Source of the DNA: a bacterium
GTDB taxonomy: Bacteria; JACRDZ01; JAJRWM01
DNA length: 15,480 nucleotides
Direction of reading: 5' to 3'
NCBI GenBank assembly: GCA_024276815.1
Contig: JAJRWM010000186.1
Coordinates: 1-15,480 of the forward strand
Each line of letters opens with the position of its first letter. Within the stretch, counting starts at the first letter, position 1. Of the stretch, positions 1 through 10,844 are shown piece by piece. The notes beneath the pieces were generated by a model. The model had not been told where the DNA came from. It saw nothing but the letters and a program-made list of their open reading frames with translations, and ran no database searches. The translations under genes were made by a program, and so were the position numbers.

Positions 1-3000
1 AACACGATAACCAAGTATATCGCGCCGCTCGATTCAACCGTGCCGGCCTGGAATTCCACCGTGGGTATTGTTGATGCCGTGAACACCTTCCAGGGCGAAG
101 AGGTTATCGTTTACTGGAACGGCGCGACCGATACCGGCAGCGCTCCGGTTACCTACAATATCTACTATTCCACGACCGCTCCCGTGACACTGGGAACAAA
201 GATTGCCGCTGTCAGCGGAAATCCTTCCGCTCCCAATGACTGGGAATACACCGTTACCGGTTTAACCAATAATGTAGAGTATGGATTTGTTGTCAGAGCG
301 CAGGACAGCGCCACTATCGTTAATGAAGATACCAACGTCGTGACTCTTTCAAGCTTGCCGTCCGATACTGTGGCGCCGAACTGGAGCGGCGGCAACGGGT
401 TGGTTGTTGATGGCAGCGGTTATGGTGATGAGATAACCCTGACCTGGAACGCCGCTTCTGACAACACTCTGCCGATTACCTATAATATCTATCAGGCTGA
501 ATCTCCCGGCGGAGAGGTCTTCACGACGCCGACCGCCAGCACTTTGGATACCACTTATAATTTGAACGGTTTAACCAACGGAACCACCTATTATTATGTC
601 GTTCGCGCCCAGGATAACGCGCCGGTGCCCAATGAAGATACCAATACCGGCGAGGTTTCGGATGTTGTCGTTGACGGCGATCCTCCGGTTTGGTACAGCA
701 CGACCGGTATCGCCAACATCTTCTCAGCCTCCGAACTGGTCGGCGATTCCCGGGTTAGTTTGAAATGGAGCAGCGCCGTCGATTTTAATACCGTGCATTA
801 CAATGTTTATTATACGGACAGTCCGACCGATCCGGTGACCAACGGTATCCAGTTGTATCATGTCTCCTATGCCAACGATCCCTCGTACGATCATAGTTAT
901 ATCGTCACCGGTCTGACTAATGGCGTTTCCTACCGCTTTGTCTTGAGAGCGCAGGACCAACTGGGGCAGGAAGAAACCAACTATTTTGTCCAAAGCGCGA
1001 TACCGACAGCCGATACGGACGCTCCGACCTGGCCTATTACGACCGGCGCCCGGCTGGCCGAGGGTAAAGACGCCAGCGTGATTGTCAGTTGGAACATGGC
1101 GTCCGATCTCAGCGAGCCGATTAAATATAATCTCTACTATAATACGAGTTCCGACGCCACCAACGGCACCAAGCTGGCTGATGTCACCACCGCGACCGGC
1201 AATGGCTATCATTATCAGTATCAACTTACCGGGCTTACCAACGGCGTTACTTATTACTTTGTTGTACGAGCCGAAGACGATGCCCTGATTCCCAATGAGG
1301 ACCTTAATACCCAGACAGTGTCAGCCGCGCCCGTGGCGGATAACAATCCTCCTGAGTGGAGCGGCAATGTTGGCGTCCAGGCTTTGTTCGCCAGCGATCT
1401 GATGGTTCGCGTAGAATGGGATCAGGCGGTCGATTCGGAGGGCAGCGATCCGGTTAATTATCTGGTTTACTATAATACGAGCGCGGTGGTGACCTCCGGC
1501 ACGCCGAGCGTGAAAAATGTCGGCGGTACGATTCCGGCTGGTTCCGAGTATGGTTATTCAACTGAAATTACCGGCTTGACCAATGGGGTGACCTATTACT
1601 TTATGGTGCGGGCAGTCGATTCAGCGTCTGTTCCCAACGAAGACCAGAACTTTATCACGCTGGGGGCGACTCCGGGCGGCTTGTTCTACGACAGTACCGA
1701 TGCCGCGGGCATTAATGACAGTTTCGAAAGCTACGGCGTGGCCATGAACGATTATGACAATGACGGGTTGCTGGATATCTACACCGCTAATTATAACGCT
1801 CAAAACAGAATGTATCATAATGACGGTTCCTTCGGCTTTACCAACGTCGCTTCAACTCTCGGCGTTAATTCCACTATGGATACCTATGGCGTTAACTTAA
1901 CCGACTATGACAATGACGATGATCCTGACCTGTTCCTGGCCAACGACGATACCATGATCGAATTCTATCGCAATGAAGCCGGCAGCAGCTTTACCAACTT
2001 TACTACCGGCGCCGCCCTTGGTATTGATAAATACAGCGCCTCGGCGATTTCCGCCGATTACGATAATGACGGCGACCTGGACGTTTACGTGATTCGGGGT
2101 GTGGGCAGTAACGGTAAGCCTAACGTTTTGTACCGCAATAAAGGCGGCAACCTGTTTGAGGTTGTGACTACCGAGGCCCAGGTCGAGGACAGCGGCATCG
2201 GCGCCAGCGGCGTCTTTACAGATATTGATAATGACGGTGATCTGGATCTTTACGTTGTTAACGGGGCCGGCACATTGGATCAACTCAATAATCTGTTCGT
2301 CAATAACGGCGACGGCACCTTCACTTTAAATAACTTCCTGGGGCTGAACGATACCGGTAGCGGCACCTCAGTAGCCGCCGGCGATGTCAACAACGATGGC
2401 TATGTGGATATTTATGTGGGTAATTTCAACCAGATCAATAATATTTATATCAACGATGGCACGGGTAATTTCAACCAGTCCAATACCTTGTTCAATTTGC
2501 CTTTGCCGGCCAACCCGACCAAGAGTGTCGCGATGGGCGACGTTAATAATGACGGTTACCTGGATATCTTTGTCGTTAACGATGGCGTCAATAACGTCCT
2601 TTACCTCAATGATCTCAACGGTAGCGGCAAGTTTGTCGACGCTACGATTCAGTGCAATTTAAGCAACGCCTACTCCGGCTCGGCCGCCGCCTTTGGCGAT
2701 GTCGATAACGACGGCGACCTGGATCTGTTCCTGACCAACCGCTTGGCCGGCAAGAATCGTTTGTACAGCAACCTGCAGGATACGGTCAGCGGTAATAACT
2801 GGTTAAAGGTTCATCTCGAAGGTATCTCGTATGATACCTCGACCAATAATACGTCGGAAAACCGGGACGCTGTTGGTTCTCAGGTGAAATTATACGTGGC
2901 GGATGGCACTTTTACCAACCTGTTGCAGATGCGCGAGATCAGTGGCGGAACCGGATTTGGCAGTCAGAACGAACTGACGGCTCACTTCGGGCTGGGTGCT

Positions 3001-6000
3001 ACGACCGTGGTTGATATCGAGGCCTTCAGAGGTGATAACCGGGTCAGACTGACGAACCAAACCTCCAACCAGTTAATTAATATCCAGGAAGCCTATGATA
3101 CGACTGATCCCTACTGGCTAACGACCACCGGCATTCAGGCCGCTGCCCCCGGTGATTTAAGGGTGACAGTTGCCTGGAATGACGCTGCCGATAGTAATGG
3201 GCCGGTAACTTACAATATCTACTATGACATTACCAGTCCGGTTCGGATTGGAACGGCGGCGTCATTAGTTTACAGCGTGACCGGAAATACCTCCGGCGTT
3301 GGCTTTGATCATTTCTACGAAGTAACCGGCCTGACCAATTTTATGCATTACTACTTCGCTGTGCAAGCGCTTGATATGGTCGGGAATGACGACAGCAATA
3401 TCGTTGAGATCCACGCTCAGCCGATGGCCGAGTATGATCCGCCTACCTGGCTGACGACCACCGGCGTGCAGCAGGCGTTTGCCGGTGAAACCCAGATCAT
3501 TGTCGCCTGGAACGGAGCGACCGACGCGAGTCCGCCCCTGAAATATAATGTCTATTACAGTACTGGCGCTGATCCGTTTGTGGGCACCAAGTTGCCGGAC
3601 GTTGCCACCACCGAACCAAGCCGTTGGGGCGCTCAGGACAGCGGCGGCTGGGATTATCAGTATATTATCAATGGGCTTACTCTGGGTCAGACCTACTCCG
3701 TGGGAGTCAGGGCTGAGGACAGCGCTCAATATTCGAATCAAGAAACCAATACAGTAATCAAAAGTAATGTGACCCTTGGCAATAATCCGCCTACCTGGCT
3801 GACGACTACCGGTATCCAGACCGCTAAGGAAGTTGAGACCCTGTTCGGGGCCGTTGATATCACCTGGGTGGGCGCCTGGGATCCGACCGGTCCGGTAACT
3901 TATAACATCTATTATGATACCAAGGAAAACGAAGTATTTAATGATCTGGTTGATGAGGAACAGTTTAATATTGATATTACTGACCCTCTCGACGGCGCGA
4001 CCTTCAGCGCGACCTCGGGCGTGGCCAGTAAGCTAAGGGCGCAAAAACAAGGCGGCGGTACTATAATTATTGACGGCGCTTCCGATCCGACTTATCCCGG
4101 CGTTGGTCATATTACCAGTCCGGGCGCTACTGACAGCGCGTCTGTTCTCTCGGCCAGCGCGCTGACCGCTCCTTACAAAATTGTTTACCAGATTGATAAC
4201 CTGGCTAATATTACCGACGGCGGCTTGAGGATGGGGATCTTCAATACCATAACCTTGCCGGTTACCGCGGCCGGCTGGGATAACGCCGGGGTCGCGAGCG
4301 GGGGCGGGGGCGGCGCCAAGGTCTATATCCAGTTCGCGGGCGACGGCAATGTTTATCTGGCCTATCGTGACGTTAACGGCGACCTCTGGCGATTTGATAA
4401 AACCACCGCGAAAACCGGTAACTGGTACAAAGAAGGCACCATTGACTTTGGTTTGATTGAATATGATAAATGGGTAACTCAAAAAGCTTACCATGTTGAA
4501 ATTGAAAGAACAGCGGCCGATGATTATTACCTGAGGATTAAAAATGATTCCGAAGTCCTCCTGGTCGAAGCTTCAATCGCCGCCGCCAGTGTCAGAGACG
4601 GCGCGGTCGCTGAATACCTGGCGATTGGTGATGTGACCAGTGACGAGGCTACCGTCAGCGTTGATCTGGACGATGTTTGTCTGGACTCGAATGTTACCGT
4701 GCCCGCCGTTCCGGAAATAACCAATGTCGGTCACCTGGAGGGCACGATCACCAATCGGGTCACCGGTCTTGACGATAATAAGCGCTACTTCTTTGGCGTG
4801 AGGGCTGTTGACGGGGCCGGAAACGAAGATACCAACACCGTCATCCTCAGTCCCGCCCTGACAAAAGACCTGCAGGATGGCTGGAATATGATTACCATGC
4901 CCTGGCAGCCGCTTTCATCCGATCCTCAGGATATCTTTGGCGACGATATTCAATACCAATTGTATATGTGGGAGTATGACGCGGCTCTTACCCCGCCGTA
5001 TTCCGCTCCCTCCTCACTGGAACTGGGACGCGGATACTGGCTCTGGGGTTGGCAGGCCGGTGTAACTGTTGATGTTGACGGCGAAGAGCGGGTTTCACCG
5101 CTGACTGTTCAGATCAGCGCGGGCTGGAATATCATCGGCGCTCCGTTTGCCTTTGATATCCTGATGAATGAAGTGGAGGTGGATACTATCCCACCGACTT
5201 CTACCAGGCTTTTAGGCCAGGCTCAGTCGGACGGTCTTCTGGTCGCCGCGATTTATAATTATGAAAACGGCGGCTATGTCGTCGATATCCTGCCTGATGG
5301 GCTGATGGATATGTGGAATGGTTACTGGATCTACGCGTTGTCCGATTTAAATATTACCATGTCGCCCAATCCGGCCACCGGCGGTAATAGCAAGATGATG
5401 GCGCCGGGAAAAACCGGTAAACGCGTTATGTACGCCGCGGGAAGCGACCGGGAGGTTAACTTCAACGTCGCGGATGACAATACTTATTCTACCCTCAAAG
5501 CGGCCTACGGGGTTATCTACAGCGACGCTTACCGCTTCCTTGATGATAACAGCAGCAATGAGGACCTTTCATCGGCTGAGCCGCCAACCAATTCAGTTTA
5601 CGCCTACTTCCCGGCCTCGGATGGCGTTGGTATTCCCGGTTACAGCGATGTCTTCATGTGGGATAAGAGGGACGCGGATGTTACCGAAGGCTGGGCCTTC
5701 GAGGTTACCTATCCGGCCGGTAGCGCCAAGGCTGATTTGCCGGTTACCGTAAGCTGGCTGGCCGGCGATATCGACGCGATCAGCAGCGGCTATCTACCAA
5801 GGCTGATTGATGTCGAGGGCTGCACAGAGGTTAATATGCGCCTGGCCACCAGTTATACCTTTACCTATGGTAGTGCCGGCAGTGTGCGGCACTTCCAGTT
5901 TGTGCTGAGCGATAACAGCGATACCACTCCGCCGCCGGCCGTTACGGTGAATGTCAATTCCACCGGTATGGAAGGGGAGGCGCGCATCGACTGGAGCGGT

Positions 6001-7794
6001 TATACTGCGCCCGCTGATTTGGAATCATATATCGTTTATCAGCAAACCGGTGATTTTAGCTCAGTTGATGGCTTGGCGCCGCTGACTGTTTTGAATCAGG
6101 ATGTGCTGAGTTATACCGTTGATAATCTGATTCTGGGCAATACCTGTTACTATGCCGTGGTCGCTCAGGATACCAGCGGTAACAAGGATAACAACGTTAC
6201 CACGGTTTCCTTTACGCCGCAGGCTGATACGACATCGCCCGGGATTGTCACCATTAGCGCTACTGATACCGGCGAAGGCGGAACCGTTCAGTTGAGTTGG
6301 GCCGGCTACTCTCCGCCGGTTGACCTGGAAAGTTACGAAGTGTATTATGATACGCTAGATTTCAGCGATATTAGTGCGATGACGCCAGCCGCTACCCTGG
6401 TTTCCGGGGTCGCAAACTATAACGTCAGCGGTTTGACCAATGGTCAGCAATACTATTTCGCGGTCGTGGCGGTAGACTATAACGGGAACAAACTGGCCGG
6501 TGTCACGACGGCCGCGGCTACTCCCTCGGCGCCGTCTACTCCGACCACCTTGACGATTAACGTTACTCCAGCCGGAAGCAAGGTTTATCTCGATGGTAAT
6601 TATGGTTATCGGGGACGACTGATAACCGGAGCCGACTATGACAACGTAAGTCCCGGCTGGCATTTCTTCCGCGTTACCAAGCCCGGCTACGCTGACCAAT
6701 TGGTATCCAAGTATATCAACAACGGCCAGGCTAATGTAATTAACGTTACCCTGAGCCTGAAAGCCGATCAGGTTTATCTGCTGTTCAGCGACCTGCTGGG
6801 CGCGGATAACTCCCAGATTGTAACGCAACAGGTTGTTGACTGGGATAATGACAATGACAAGGACCTGTTGGTTAGTAAGGTGGACGGCTCGATCCTGATC
6901 TATCGCAATACCGGCAGTGATGAAACTCCGGTCCTGGGCGCTTCTCAGGTATTGCGGACGGCCTCCGGCGACTTTAACGGCGGCGAGGAAGTCAGCTTCT
7001 TTGTCGTTGACTGGAATGGCGACGGCTTGAAAGATATTATTTATGGTAACAGAAGCGGCCAGGTTTACTGGTGCGAAAATACCGGCGCGGACAGCAGTCC
7101 CGACTTGGCCGACATGGTTGTCCTGACCTTGACCGACGCCAGCGCTCTCGATGTGGGCGCTGACGCCAAGCCGGTTGTCGCTGATTGGGATAATGACGGC
7201 GACAAAGATTTGCTGGTCGGTAACAACGCCGGCGCGGTTATAGTCTTTGAAAACGTGGGCAGTAACAGTAACCCGCAATTCAATGCCGGCGTTAATCAAC
7301 TGGCCGGTGGTCAGGCGATTAACCTGGGCAGCGACGCCGCTCCGTTTATCTGTGACTGGGATAATGACGGGGACCTGGACCTGTTAGTCGGGGCCAGGGG
7401 TAAAGTCTATGTCTATAAAAATACCAACAATGATACCTCGCCGCAGCTCGCTGAGGCAAGTATGGTTAAAGCGAATGGCGTCAATCTCGATGTGGGTGAT
7501 CAGGCTAATCTCTTCGCTGTCGATTGGAATAATGACCGGCTGATGGATATTCTGATCAGCAATGAGGCCGGTAAGCTGAGTCTGTATCGGGCGCAATCGC
7601 CCAGCGGCGGTAACGGCGACATTGATGGTTCAGGACGGGTCGATGGTATGGATCTGATTATCCTGGGTCGGGCCTTCGGGGCGCAGGAAGGCGTGGACGC
7701 CAACTTCGACCCACGCGCCGACCTTAACGCTGACGGTCTTATTGATGGTAGTGACCTGCAAGTGCTTGCCGGCAACTTCGGCAGTGTGTACTAG
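1..7794 (+). CDS. Giant multidomain surface protein (FN3, FG-GAP/VCBS, ASPIC/UnbV, PEGA) with C-terminal dockerin; 5' partial
   Basis: The frame is open to base 1, so the N-terminus and any signal peptide lie outside the window; residues here count from the GTG at 40. Seen in order: five FN3-like modules (about 2-545), each with a DxxPPxW entry, a V-W strand, YNIYY and GLTNGVTYYFVVRA; an FG-GAP/VCBS block rich in DxDNDGDLDxY calcium loops (547-915); an ASPIC/UnbV-like domain (918-1019, NWLKVHLEG and GFGSQNE); three more FN3 modules (1021-1606), the last split by a LamG-like insert (about 1297-1552); paired GWNMITMPW and GWNIIGAPF modules (1607-1778); a beta-rich region (1802-1961); two FN3 modules (1963-2165); PEGA (2169-2243); a second FG-GAP block (2246-2521); and a type I dockerin (2527-2584). 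An extracellular adhesion or binding role is inferred. No catalytic domain is recognised. The cohesin lipoprotein gene begins 14 bases downstream, so the two are probably co-transcribed. Confidence 0.9.
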   Translation, partial: NTITKYIAPLDSTVPAWNSTVGIVDAVNTFQGEEVIVYWNGATDTGSAPVTYNIYYSTTAPVTLGTKIAAVSGNPSAPNDWEYTVTGLTNNVEYGFVVRAQDSATIVNEDTNVVTLSSLPSDTVAPNWSGGNGLVVDGSGYGDEITLTWNAASDNTLPITYNIYQAESPGGEVFTTPTASTLDTTYNLNGLTNGTTYYYVVRAQDNAPVPNEDTNTGEVSDVVVDGDPPVWYSTTGIANIFSASELVGDSRVSLKWSSAVDFNTVHYNVYYTDSPTDPVTNGIQLYHVSYANDPSYDHSYIVTGLTNGVSYRFVLRAQDQLGQEETNYFVQSAIPTADTDAPTWPITTGARLAEGKDASVIVSWNMASDLSEPIKYNLYYNTSSDATNGTKLADVTTATGNGYHYQYQLTGLTNGVTYYFVVRAEDDALIPNEDLNTQTVSAAPVADNNPPEWSGNVGVQALFASDLMVRVEWDQAVDSEGSDPVNYLVYYNTSAVVTSGTPSVKNVGGTIPAGSEYGYSTEITGLTNGVTYYFMVRAVDSASVPNEDQNFITLGATPGGLFYDSTDAAGINDSFESYGVAMNDYDNDGLLDIYTANYNAQNRMYHNDGSFGFTNVASTLGVNSTMDTYGVNLTDYDNDDDPDLFLANDDTMIEFYRNEAGSSFTNFTTGAALGIDKYSASAISADYDNDGDLDVYVIRGVGSNGKPNVLYRNKGGNLFEVVTTEAQVEDSGIGASGVFTDIDNDGDLDLYVVNGAGTLDQLNNLFVNNGDGTFTLNNFLGLNDTGSGTSVAAGDVNNDGYVDIYVGNFNQINNIYINDGTGNFNQSNTLFNLPLPANPTKSVAMGDVNNDGYLDIFVVNDGVNNVLYLNDLNGSGKFVDATIQCNLSNAYSGSAAAFGDVDNDGDLDLFLTNRLAGKNRLYSNLQDTVSGNNWLKVHLEGISYDTSTNNTSENRDAVGSQVKLYVADGTFTNLLQMREISGGTGFGSQNELTAHFGLGATTVVDIEAFRGDNRVRLTNQTSNQLINIQEAYDTTDPYWLTTTGIQAAAPGDLRVTVAWNDAADSNGPVTYNIYYDITSPVRIGTAASLVYSVTGNTSGVGFDHFYEVTGLTNFMHYYFAVQALDMVGNDDSNIVEIHAQPMAEYDPPTWLTTTGVQQAFAGETQIIVAWNGATDASPPLKYNVYYSTGADPFVGTKLPDVATTEPSRWGAQDSGGWDYQYIINGLTLGQTYSVGVRAEDSAQYSNQETNTVIKSNVTLGNNPPTWLTTTGIQTAKEVETLFGAVDITWVGAWDPTGPVTYNIYYDTKENEVFNDLVDEEQFNIDITDPLDGATFSATSGVASKLRAQKQGGGTIIIDGASDPTYPGVGHITSPGATDSASVLSASALTAPYKIVYQIDNLANITDGGLRMGIFNTITLPVTAAGWDNAGVASGGGGGAKVYIQFAGDGNVYLAYRDVNGDLWRFDKTTAKTGNWYKEGTIDFGLIEYDKWVTQKAYHVEIERTAADDYYLRIKNDSEVLLVEASIAAASVRDGAVAEYLAIGDVTSDEATVSVDLDDVCLDSNVTVPAVPEITNVGHLEGTITNRVTGLDDNKRYFFGVRAVDGAGNEDTNTVILSPALTKDLQDGWNMITMPWQPLSSDPQDIFGDDIQYQLYMWEYDAALTPPYSAPSSLELGRGYWLWGWQAGVTVDVDGEERVSPLTVQISAGWNIIGAPFAFDILMNEVEVDTIPPTSTRLLGQAQSDGLLVAAIYNYENGGYVVDILPDGLMDMWNGYWIYALSDLNITMSPNPATGGNSKMMAPGKTGKRVMYAAGSDREVNFNVADDNTYSTLKAAYGVIYSDAYRFLDDNSSNEDLSSAEPPTNSVYAYFPASDGVGIPGYSDVFMWDKRDADVTEGWAFEVTYPAGSAKADLPVTVSWLAGDIDAISSGYLPRLIDVEGCTEVNMRLATSYTFTYGSAGSVRHFQFVLSDNSDTTPPPAVTVNVNSTGMEGEARIDWSGYTAPADLESYIVYQQTGDFSSVDGLAPLTVLNQDVLSYTVDNLILGNTCYYAVVAQDTSGNKDNNVTTVSFTPQADTTSPGIVTISATDTGEGGTVQLSWAGYSPPVDLESYEVYYDTLDFSDISAMTPAATLVSGVANYNVSGLTNGQQYYFAVVAVDYNGNKLAGVTTAAATPSAPSTPTTLTINVTPAGSKVYLDGNYGYRGRLITGADYDNVSPGWHFFRVTKPGYADQLVSKYINNGQANVINVTLSLKADQVYLLFSDLLGADNSQIVTQQVVDWDNDNDKDLLVSKVDGSILIYRNTGSDETPVLGASQVLRTASGDFNGGEEVSFFVVDWNGDGLKDIIYGNRSGQVYWCENTGADSSPDLADMVVLTLTDASALDVGADAKPVVADWDNDGDKDLLVGNNAGAVIVFENVGSNSNPQFNAGVNQLAGGQAINLGSDAAPFICDWDNDGDLDLLVGARGKVYVYKNTNNDTSPQLAEASMVKANGVNLDVGDQANLFAVDWNNDRLMDILISNEAGKLSLYRAQSPSGGNGDIDGSGRVDGMDLIILGRAFGAQEGVDANFDPRADLNADGLIDGSDLQVLAGNFGSVY
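7611..7791 (+). other. Type I dockerin domain at the C-terminus of the giant protein
   Basis: Two F-hand repeats close the protein. The first reads GDIDGSGRVDGMDLIILGRA and runs on to FG; the second reads DLNADGLIDGSDLQVLAGNF and then G. Both have Asp/Asn at calcium positions 1, 3 and 5, Asp at position 12, and the Leu-x-x-Leu-x-x-x-(Ala)-Phe-Gly helix typical of type I dockerins. Known of the family: dockerins bind cohesins with high affinity in a calcium-dependent way. Because it sits at the extreme C-terminus, directly before a gene encoding a cohesin, a direct partnership is likely but inferred. Confidence 0.9.
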
Positions 7795-7808
7795 ATGAAG
7801 TGGTCGTA

Positions 7809-8930
7809 ATGAAATATCTTCGGCGCTTGGTGCCGATTATTATAGCGCTGTTTTTTCTGTTGGCTAATGGTTGCGCTCCTCCACCCTCCGGTTCCGGAGG
7901 CGGCAGTAGTAGCGGGGGAGGGGGCGGTACCCATACGACGACAAAAGCCGGCATTCAGGGTAAATTGATTGTGCCTAACGGCGTCGCGCCAAAGCAAGCG
8001 AGAACAATGTACGCGGCGCTATCTGGAGATGTGTTGCCGGGAGCGACGGTAGTCTTGTCTGACGCTGATGGGACTCCCTTTGATACGACGGTATCTGACG
8101 TTAAGGGCGAGTATCTGTTTGATAATGTTGATCCAGGTAACAATTATCTTATCCATGCCAATCTTGGCAATATTAATCTCTATGGTCTTGTGCCGTTTGT
8201 GAACGATGTCGATGTCGATGTCGGTCAGATTGACGCGGCGTCAACCGCTGTTTATCTTTTAGCGCAATACTATGTTAATAACGATCCCGACTTTACCAGC
8301 ATCGCTGACGTTGATGTCGGAGCTTTGGAAACCTACCTGGAGCTTAATATCGCCCTGGTAAACGAAGTCGTGCAGGCGTTAGTTGATTTTGGCGATACCA
8401 ACGCTTCATCAGGAGATATTATTGATAATGTCAATAATACCGTTGTGACTGCCGCCGCGGCCGCGGCTAATGATACGGCGATATCAATTACCGCCAGCAA
8501 GGAAGTCCTGACGGTTAACGAGGAGTTCTTTGTTTACGTTAACGCGGGCTTCGTCACGGACCTTTACGGGGCGTCCTTTGGTCTTGAGTATGATTCCACC
8601 AAAATTCAGGTTAAGGATAGCGACTTGAGTGATACCACTATTCAGCCAACCTACGCTCAGGGGGATTTTTTTGACAGCGCGGCGTCTAACCTGCTGGTTG
8701 GTTTTGAAAACGGCGATTACGATAAGCTCCTGGTAGGAATCTCAAAAACCGGGCAGGTGGTCGGCAATGATGGTAATGGTAATCTGCTGAGAATTACTTT
8801 TAAAGCGTTGGATACTACCAGTTCAACTATCCTCTGTTTTGATTCCACATCAATGATAACGGATTCATCGGACAATGAGATTCCCACAAACAGCTGGGCT
8901 GACGTCTGTAAGGAAATTTCCATCCAATAA
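7809..8930 (+). CDS. Cohesin-domain lipoprotein (putative surface receptor for the dockerin protein)
   Basis: A 373-residue protein. The ATG at 7809 is preferred over the in-frame GTG at 7800 because it begins a classical lipoprotein signal (MKYLRR, hydrophobic stretch, LLANGC, lipidated Cys22). After Cys comes a Pro/Gly/Ser linker (23-42), then a carboxypeptidase-regulatory-like or CnaB-like beta-sandwich (about 47-115, LPGATVVLSDADG then GEYLFDNVDPG), a mostly helical, Ala-rich stretch (about 125-220), and a cohesin-like domain (about 223-373). Cohesin hallmarks are the VNEEFFVYVNAG strand, LYGASFGLEYDSTKIQV, the GDFF loop, and GNLLRITFKAL near the end. It follows the dockerin protein by 14 bases with only a weak Shine-Dalgarno (GAAGTGG), suggesting translational coupling. 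Likely role: membrane-anchored cohesin that tethers dockerin proteins. Membrane localisation (inner or outer) is not determinable here. No PEP-CTERM tail is present. Confidence 0.85.
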   Translation: MKYLRRLVPIIIALFFLLANGCAPPPSGSGGGSSSGGGGGTHTTTKAGIQGKLIVPNGVAPKQARTMYAALSGDVLPGATVVLSDADGTPFDTTVSDVKGEYLFDNVDPGNNYLIHANLGNINLYGLVPFVNDVDVDVGQIDAASTAVYLLAQYYVNNDPDFTSIADVDVGALETYLELNIALVNEVVQALVDFGDTNASSGDIIDNVNNTVVTAAAAAANDTAISITASKEVLTVNEEFFVYVNAGFVTDLYGASFGLEYDSTKIQVKDSDLSDTTIQPTYAQGDFFDSAASNLLVGFENGDYDKLLVGISKTGQVVGNDGNGNLLRITFKALDTTSSTILCFDSTSMITDSSDNEIPTNSWADVCKEISIQ

Positions 8931-9124: not shown

Positions 9125-9664
9125 ATGACAAACGGCTGGCGGGACCTGTACCAAAAAAATAAATCTACCGTTAATTTCGTTCTTTTATTTTCCCTGTTCA
9201 TAATCATTGCGCATTTGATTGTTTTTCTGATCCAGATAACTGATTTTATCGTTGTTTTAAATAATATGACGGCCAGGTTGGTTTTTCTGTCCTTAAGAAC
9301 ATTCACTTCTGAAGTAATAATGAATAACGAAGTGTTAATCTGGGGAAACTTTTCCCTGAAAATTATCACTGAATGCACTGGCCTGTTTCTTTTTATCGTT
9401 TATGCGGGCGCGGTGGTCAGTTTTCCAACGACCTGGAGAAAAAAAGCTTTGGGATTGCTCGGTCTGCCGGCCTTGTTTTTACTGAACCTGGTTAGACTGC
9501 TGGTTTTAATGCTGATCGGCCGCTATTATCGGTCGGCGTTTGACTTTGTTCATCATTATTTATGGCAAACCACCTTTATCATCGCGGTGATTGCGGTCTG
9601 GATGGTCTGGGTGGAGTTAGTGGTCCACGATGGGCAACAAGCGGGTGATGGGCTTGAAGGCTAA
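9125..9664 (+). CDS. Exosortase/archaeosortase family transpeptidase (short, single-domain form)
   Basis: A 179-residue integral membrane protein with about five or six hydrophobic helices. The family's catalytic triad is visible: Cys84 in TECTGLF, Arg124 in LLNLVRL, and His143/His144 in FDFVHHYLWQ. Known of the family: exosortases cleave C-terminal sorting tails (Pro-Glu-Pro or variants) of secreted proteins and transfer them to a membrane or surface carrier. Its length matches compact exosortases that lack the fused EpsI domain; an XrtH-like subtype is possible but not proven. The gene has no Shine-Dalgarno. It overlaps the next gene, which looks like a membrane partner. Neither protein upstream ends in a recognisable sorting tail, so the substrate is elsewhere. 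Confidence 0.85.
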   Translation: MTNGWRDLYQKNKSTVNFVLLFSLFIIIAHLIVFLIQITDFIVVLNNMTARLVFLSLRTFTSEVIMNNEVLIWGNFSLKIITECTGLFLFIVYAGAVVSFPTTWRKKALGLLGLPALFLLNLVRLLVLMLIGRYYRSAFDFVHHYLWQTTFIIAVIAVWMVWVELVVHDGQQAGDGLEG

Positions 9665-10166
9665 ATTTTTCTTCCTGGCAAAGCTGATTTTCTGGGCAAC
9701 TCTGCTTTTTTTAATCCTGCAACCACTCTGGCCTTTTTATTATAAACTGGCTGCCTTGACGAGCCAGATAACCCTTGGCGCTCTGCGGTACAAGGTCTCT
9801 GTTACCGCTGGTAAAAAATGGGGTGTTCTGCCGGGAAATCCGGAGTATATCTATTTTCTTTACCGATTCCGGTCGGCGCAGGTGGACGCCAGTTTCTTCA
9901 GCCTGAATATTATTCCGTTTTTAGCCCTGATGTTTTCGACAATTAGTAAAGTAGGGAAAGCCTTCCTGGTCCAGGTTGTTGTTGGCGTGGCAATAATCAT
10001 GACCGGCCACCAGGTGTTTCTTTTAAGCGCTTTTTTTTATTTTTGCCGAGGCTCTATGGCCGGCAATATTTTAACAACTTTCTTCGGTGATTTTGGCAGC
10101 ATTTTTCTGCCCTTTATTCTGTGGCTGCTATTTCGGGGCCGGGAAATAAAACTATTCAATAATTAG
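9630..10166 (+). CDS. Exosortase-associated membrane protein, function unknown
   Basis: A 178-residue protein overlapping the exosortase gene by 35 bases, or 17 if the internal ATG at 9648 is the true start; neither start has a good Shine-Dalgarno. One helix spans about residues 12-35. A short extracytoplasmic stretch follows (about 45-88, including GKKWGVLPGNPEYIYFLYRF). Two or three further helices follow (about 90-175). A basic tail (RGREIKLFNN) ends the protein. I recognise no catalytic motif. Compact exosortases, such as the XrtH group, are often followed by a small membrane protein, and the overlap argues for co-translation with the exosortase. Its role as an exosortase partner is inferred from position only. 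Confidence 0.7.
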   Translation: MGNKRVMGLKAKFFFLAKLIFWATLLFLILQPLWPFYYKLAALTSQITLGALRYKVSVTAGKKWGVLPGNPEYIYFLYRFRSAQVDASFFSLNIIPFLALMFSTISKVGKAFLVQVVVGVAIIMTGHQVFLLSAFFYFCRGSMAGNILTTFFGDFGSIFLPFILWLLFRGREIKLFNN

Positions 10167-10448: not shown

Positions 10449-10844
10449 TTAAGATTTTAAATGTGGAGGGGGTTCTTCAGCCAGGTGTAAATCCAGAGTA
10501 CCCTCCCATTGGCCATGAAGATTGCAACGGCTGACCGCCCTGAGCAGGCCTGACTGCTTTAAGTTGACGCTCAGCGTCGCCTGAGGCAGCAAAACCACCG
10601 GGGTGAAGGTCAACCTGGTCAGGTAAACCTCTCCAACGTACAGGTCGATAAACTGGATGTAATGATCGTTTTCAACCGGATGCTGTATCCGGCCAACAGA
10701 AACCTCCAGGAGAAAAGGTTTGCCGGCGGTTAGTTTTTCGGGAGTTTTTAGCACGGGAATATGTTTTTGTTCCATTTCGGTTAGCGAAGCAGGATCGTTC
10801 GCCCGGTTAATCTGCAAAAACCAGTTGTGGTATTTGGTCATCAT
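10449..10844 (-). CDS. Superoxide reductase (neelaredoxin/desulfoferrodoxin-type SOR domain)
   Basis: A 131-residue cytoplasmic protein. Superoxide reductase reduces superoxide to hydrogen peroxide at a mononuclear iron bound by four His and one Cys, without making oxygen; this is typical of anaerobes. The ligand residues are present: His28 (QKHIPV), His55 (QHPV), His61 (DHYIQF), Cys107 and His110 (CNLHGQW). The N-terminal Cys4 rubredoxin-like domain of class I desulfoferrodoxin is absent. Lys27, which helps steer superoxide, is kept. The glutamate usually next to it (EKH in many SORs) is Gln26 here. The start overlaps the stop of the upstream exported-protein gene by four bases, so translation is coupled. 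A terminator-like stem follows. Confidence 0.88.
   Translation of the reverse strand: MMTKYHNWFLQINRANDPASLTEMEQKHIPVLKTPEKLTAGKPFLLEVSVGRIQHPVENDHYIQFIDLYVGEVYLTRLTFTPVVLLPQATLSVNLKQSGLLRAVSRCNLHGQWEGTLDLHLAEEPPPHLKS

Follow-up and report, generated by a model that had tools for sequence, protein, structure and literature searches.

A giant dockerin protein and its neighbouring cohesin lipoprotein as a probable cargo-and-anchor pair

The window analyzed here is the whole of contig C117 (15,480 nucleotides) of genome G000, a 2.39 Mb assembly in 246 contigs. The window opens inside a giant gene (positions 1..7794, + strand) that is 5'-truncated at the contig edge, and 2597 amino acids are visible. 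Pfam models place FN3 repeats, an FG-GAP/ASPIC-UnbV region, PEGA, a second FG-GAP region, and a C-terminal dockerin along the protein, in that order. The N-terminus is out of view because the contig start cuts the open reading frame, and the signal peptide is likewise unseen because that end is missing from an assembly that is 91% complete. The FN3 and propeller-type repeats suggest that the giant protein probably functions in adhesion or binding.

The dockerin domain (7612..7791, + strand, residues about 2538-2597) was identified with Pfam and with a phylum profile. The Pfam PF00404 (Dockerin_1) match spans residues 2539-2590 of the 2597-residue frame and scores 25.6 bits against the curated cut-off of 22.9. 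A leave-one-out profile derived from 12 other dockerins of the phylum gave 56.6 bits (E 3.5e-16). The search set comprised 3,502 sequences, the two window proteins and 3,500 shuffled copies, and no match to the leave-one-out dockerin or cohesin profiles was reported among the shuffled copies. Two predicted calcium-binding F-hand loops, DIDGSGRVDGMD (7618..7653, + strand) and DLNADGLIDGSD (7720..7755, + strand), were read from the sequence and aligned with the 12 relatives. Both loops are complete and carry the calcium-loop residues. A single-sequence structural model of the dockerin (pLDDT 56.7) was uninformative about its helices. The original prediction described a complete two-repeat type I dockerin. 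The two-loop C-terminal dockerin stands, but the type I label is unsupported because the nearest solved dockerin, 2y3n_B, comes from an entry titled type II. The phylum cohesin profile gives its best score on the type II dyad 3l8q, and the fold search with the cohesin model described below returns a mixture of type I and type II cohesins.

The stop codon of the giant gene (7792-7794) is followed by an ATG at 7809, which leaves the 14-nucleotide gap originally reported. This ATG begins the cohesin lipoprotein gene (7809..8930, + strand); the mechanically called frame begins with GTG at 7800. A probable lipoprotein signal, MKYLRRLVPIIIALFFLLANGC, runs to the lipobox cysteine (LLANGC; 7809..7874, + strand), whose codon occupies 7872-7874 and is followed by a Gly/Ser-rich tether. 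The hydrophobic signal and the cysteine are present, but the asparagine at position -2 deviates from the usual lipobox. This unusual residue is shared with the paralogues, where LNSC, LNGC, and FNGC are found repeatedly. The membrane lipid anchor that had been proposed is retained as probable. A CarboxypepD_reg or prealbumin-like spacer domain (8022..8159, + strand, residues 75-120) lies beyond the tether and scores under the Pfam cut-off for CarboxypepD_reg.

The lipoprotein ends in a cohesin domain (8457..8921, + strand), as had been predicted, and Pfam, the phylum profile, a structural model, and a fold search all identify it. The PF00963 match covers residues 229-363 of the 7800-8930 frame at 26.5 bits (cut-off 24.1), and the leave-one-out profile gave 82.8 bits (E 3.3e-24). 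An AlphaFold2 model calculated from a three-row alignment has nine strands in a jelly-roll fold, though at low confidence (pLDDT 55.9). Among the Foldseek matches listed for this model, 50 of 50 were cohesins or cohesin-containing chains, and the best VIA match had a Z score of 12.7 over 132 residues. A PDB search with the single lipoprotein sequence returned chance matches only, and the family profile was required to find real ones. Profiles, fold match, and sequence reading together confirm a dockerin protein and a probable cohesin lipoprotein encoded back to back.

We did not detect a terminator 3' of the cohesin gene; hairpins there were no better than in shuffled sequences (z -1.64), and the scan was near expectation. 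An exosortase-family gene (9125-9664, + strand) lies about 195 nucleotides downstream of the cohesin gene. Its closest models are archaeosortase B and exosortase H, both under their cut-offs, and it scores over the general exosortase/archaeosortase cut-off. It overlaps a gene (9630-10166, + strand) for a 178-residue hydrophobic protein with no family match. Farther along, 10449-10844 on the - strand encodes a stand-alone desulfoferrodoxin iron-binding domain protein, which fits an anaerobic or oxygen-sensitive lifestyle.

Pfam models and phylum profiles were used to search the G000 assembly for further dockerin and cohesin genes. The assembly contains one dockerin and two cohesins; the search thus added no dockerin and a single cohesin, which is part of a secretin. 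No multi-cohesin scaffoldin was detected in the 91%-complete assembly by either the Pfam model or the phylum profile. No Pfam glycoside hydrolase family was found among the visible residues of the dockerin protein, whose N-terminus is missing. These two results argue against a cellulosome, and this candidate was rejected for a genome with one dockerin protein and two single-cohesin proteins. The original observation that no cellulase or scaffoldin is visible is supported to this extent. The dockerin-cohesin pair is probably a system for holding cargo rather than a machine for digesting cellulose.

The window's phylum is represented by four genomes in our comparison, and the pairing recurs among them. 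Genome G003 (JAQUKH01) has 11 full dockerins, one partial dockerin, and a fragment, together with 13 cohesins, and genome G001 has five of each domain. Six intact G003 loci (C24, C8, C1, C31, C30, and C3) place a dockerin gene and a small cohesin gene next to each other on the same strand within about 20 nucleotides, against 0.13 adjacent pairs expected by chance (Poisson P 6e-9, assuming 2,400 genes). A contig break (C46 to C10) interrupts a seventh G003 pair, and G001 has pairs on C107 and C90. The order of the genes varies, with either dockerin or cohesin first. The cargo also varies and includes an S8 protease with LVIVD/PKD domains, RCC1 repeats, PKD, VWA, an M4/M36-type peptidase, a DUF5122 propeller with cadherin-like domains, and others. 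The exception is the pair on C3 (G003) and C107 (G001), where the dockerin has no visible cargo. G222, a genome outside the phylum, shows the gene order of the window, with 19 nucleotides between the dockerin stop codon and a cohesin lipoprotein gene. A weaker case is C19 of G006, also outside the phylum, where a small cohesin protein lies beside a larger one with a sub-threshold dockerin match.

Several smaller observations were made at these loci. The tiny dockerin proteins of G001:C107 (L078:181-507) and G003:C3 (about L064:4673-4861) consist of a hydrophobic N-terminus and a dockerin with little else; their genes adjoin a cohesin lipoprotein gene and lie near polysaccharide-chain-length-type genes. 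A half-dockerin fragment, a 31-residue open frame just 3' of a complete dockerin gene (G003:C10:1548-1634), is perhaps a decayed duplicate. Two cohesin lipoproteins without a neighbouring dockerin, at L071:5786-6385 (G003:C44) and L074:6087-6713 (G001:C66), each adjoin a LysM-type protein, and transglycosylase SLT and LysM domains were confirmed in the G003 neighbour.

The divergence of the two domains was compared across pairs. Dockerin and cohesin distances correlate among ten pairs (r 0.89, permutation p 2e-4) and among the six paralogous G003 pairs (r 0.60, p 0.03). Species history is ruled out as the cause of the second correlation because all six pairs reside in one genome, but pairs copied whole would leave a similar pattern. 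Recurrent adjacency and correlated divergence support the cognate relationship that had been proposed for the window pair. Gene adjacency predicts which domains are partners in about ten pairs; as six of these are paralogues within a single genome, their specificity is open to a matrix test.

The second cohesin of G000 resides on a PilQ/GspD-type secretin of 652 residues (L079:4009-5967, G000:C103), where a long Pro/Ala/Glu-rich linker precedes the C-terminal cohesin. The protein matches Secretin (138.8 bits), Secretin_N (46.1 bits), STN (32.0 bits), and Cohesin (28.9 bits). Translations of the surrounding operon read as PilM/N/O-like proteins and GspG-like pseudopilins. In view of this finding, the description of the window pair as a minimal two-component system is unsupported. 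The secretin cohesin means that the dockerin may have a partner besides the neighbouring lipoprotein. Orthologues of the cohesin-secretin occur in G001 and G003, and similar proteins occur in G080 and G086. In G003:C10, the gene directly after the cohesin-secretin (L065:13677-14234) encodes a 185-residue protein in which a short hydrophobic N-terminus precedes a near-duplicate of the secretin's cohesin; the arrangement looks like a duplication of the 3' end of the secretin gene.

The wider survey covered 193 genomes, 189 of them outside the window's phylum. Secretin matches that run through a cohesin were found in five (G000, G001, G003, G080, and G086). The window dockerin type, at E 3e-21 or better, was found in the same five, and the next best genome gave 4e-13. 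Kinship labels place the five in three lineages. Because members of the window's phylum supplied the dockerin profile, only G080 and G086 count as independent cases of this co-occurrence. Outside the phylum, both features are confined to these two genomes (2/189; P 5.6e-5 if independent, or 0.0016 with a looser dockerin cut). Like G000, each of the two has a single dockerin at E 3e-21 strength along with a single cohesin lipoprotein and a single cohesin-secretin. Four of the secretin cohesins (G000, G001, G003, and G080) cluster (support 0.967), and that of G086 falls outside. G222 has a dockerin-lipoprotein pair, yet no second cohesin was detected at E 1e-8 in this 86%-complete genome.

These data suggest that the two window genes are a plug-and-socket module, one member of a family of such one-cargo/one-anchor pairs within the phylum, and we put the probability of this reading at roughly 0.6. 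The giant FN3/FG-GAP protein would be exported, and its C-terminal dockerin would be held in the presence of calcium by the cohesin of the neighbouring lipoprotein. The lipoprotein would be lipidated and fixed to the envelope, with the outer membrane as the likeliest site and an outward orientation, and the Gly/Ser tether and CarboxypepD_reg-like domain would serve as its stalk. An Omp85 protein and the secretin in the genome support a two-membrane cell. Each anchor is encoded beside its own cargo, and dockerin and cohesin diverge together as cognate partners should. The secretin possibly assists export of the cargo before its own socket holds it at the lipid anchor. A fuller three-part scheme, in which a common secretin's cohesin captures dockerin-tagged proteins to take them across the outer membrane and each protein's own lipoprotein then holds it at the envelope, would have the dockerin read twice; we offer this scheme only tentatively.

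A different division of labour would make the dockerin mainly an export or routing tag that is read by the secretin's cohesin, with the lipoprotein as escort or final holder, and the anchor alone would then be insufficient. The one other cohesin of the genome points this way, being part of a secretin encoded alongside PilM/N/O-type genes and GspG-like pseudopilins, as do the joint distribution of dockerin type and cohesin-secretin, the single matching sets in G080 and G086, and the clustering of four secretin cohesins. However, the operonic partner of the dockerin is the lipoprotein and not the secretin, and G222 has the pair with no second cohesin found. The origin of the dockerin profile in the window's own phylum, the separate position of the G086 secretin cohesin, and the possibility that gene transfer between lineages explains the sharing also weaken the case, and we regard the export tag as doubtful.

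The plug-and-socket reading assumes that the two domains bind each other. If they do not, cohesin and dockerin would serve surface proteins as spacers or as adhesive modules, with pairs repeated by co-duplication alone. Duplication of pairs as units could also yield the correlated distances, and some large multidomain proteins do contain cohesins although no dockerin gene adjoins theirs. This explanation is nonetheless improbable given that gene order flips within pairs, that the cargo changes while dockerin and cohesin persist, and that the arrangement recurs outside the phylum. In addition, in the solved complexes 2y3n, 4u3s, 4wi0, 2b59, 3kcp, and 5g5d the dockerin profile hits one partner and the cohesin profile the other. 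Binding might instead operate between cells, with the cohesins of one cell capturing the dockerin proteins of its neighbours, as suggested for ANME-SRB consortia. The giant protein bears adhesion-type repeats, and two reports propose cohesin/dockerin proteins as adhesins in syntrophic partners (PMC10553843, PMC9012536), but both halves are encoded together here, which favours self-anchoring. We consider a between-cell role highly improbable. The association with a secretin cohesin hints at a part in export in two-membrane bacteria, which is open to testing, and would supply orthogonal plugs and sockets for displaying proteins at the cell surface.

Single-cohesin surface anchoring is already known from cellulosomes, and non-cellulosomal cohesins and dockerins are widespread. 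To our knowledge, few of the non-cellulosomal domains have a known partner or purpose. Non-cellulosomal cohesin/dockerin proteins were reportedly treated by Peer et al. in 2009. We did not find the repeated one-cargo/one-lipoprotein operon or its association with a secretin in the openly accessible literature searched. Non-cellulosomal cohesins and dockerins themselves are on record (PMC9012536, PMC10553843, PMC6461901, and PMC10066038). The proteins of Archaeoglobus fulgidus and ANME archaea (PMC9012536) resemble those of the window in having both domains without cellulose degradation or a scaffoldin, and the A. fulgidus cohesin 2xdh resembles the window cohesin (Z 11.4). In contrast, the window pair is an example of an operon that recurs and includes a lipoprotein anchor, and a further cohesin resides on a secretin.

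The adhesins of syntrophic sulfate reducers (PMC10553843) also have adjacent cohesin and dockerin domains in two-membrane bacteria. The consulted portion of that paper proposes them for cell-cell contact in consortia and does not describe a pairing with lipoproteins or a link to a secretin. The 'planctosome' proposed for freshwater Planctomycetes (PMC6461901) resembles the module envisaged for the window in being an outer-membrane-associated cohesin/dockerin complex with non-cellulase cargo, but its scaffold model has an adaptor with both domains and a lamin-tail anchor, whereas the window combines a single anchor with a single cargo. The single-cohesin anchors of cellulosomes (the type II SdbA and type I OlpA/OlpC of C. 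thermocellum and the autonomous cohesin ScaG of R. flavefaciens) share with the proposed window module the use of one cohesin for holding a dockerin-bearing protein near the surface, and the fold of the window cohesin matches 2bm3, 3ul4, 4dh2, and 4wkz. Those anchors use the Gram-positive wall, whereas in the window a two-membrane cell would use a probable lipoprotein for this purpose. Its cargo is neither a cellulase nor a scaffoldin, and every cargo is encoded next to an anchor of its own.
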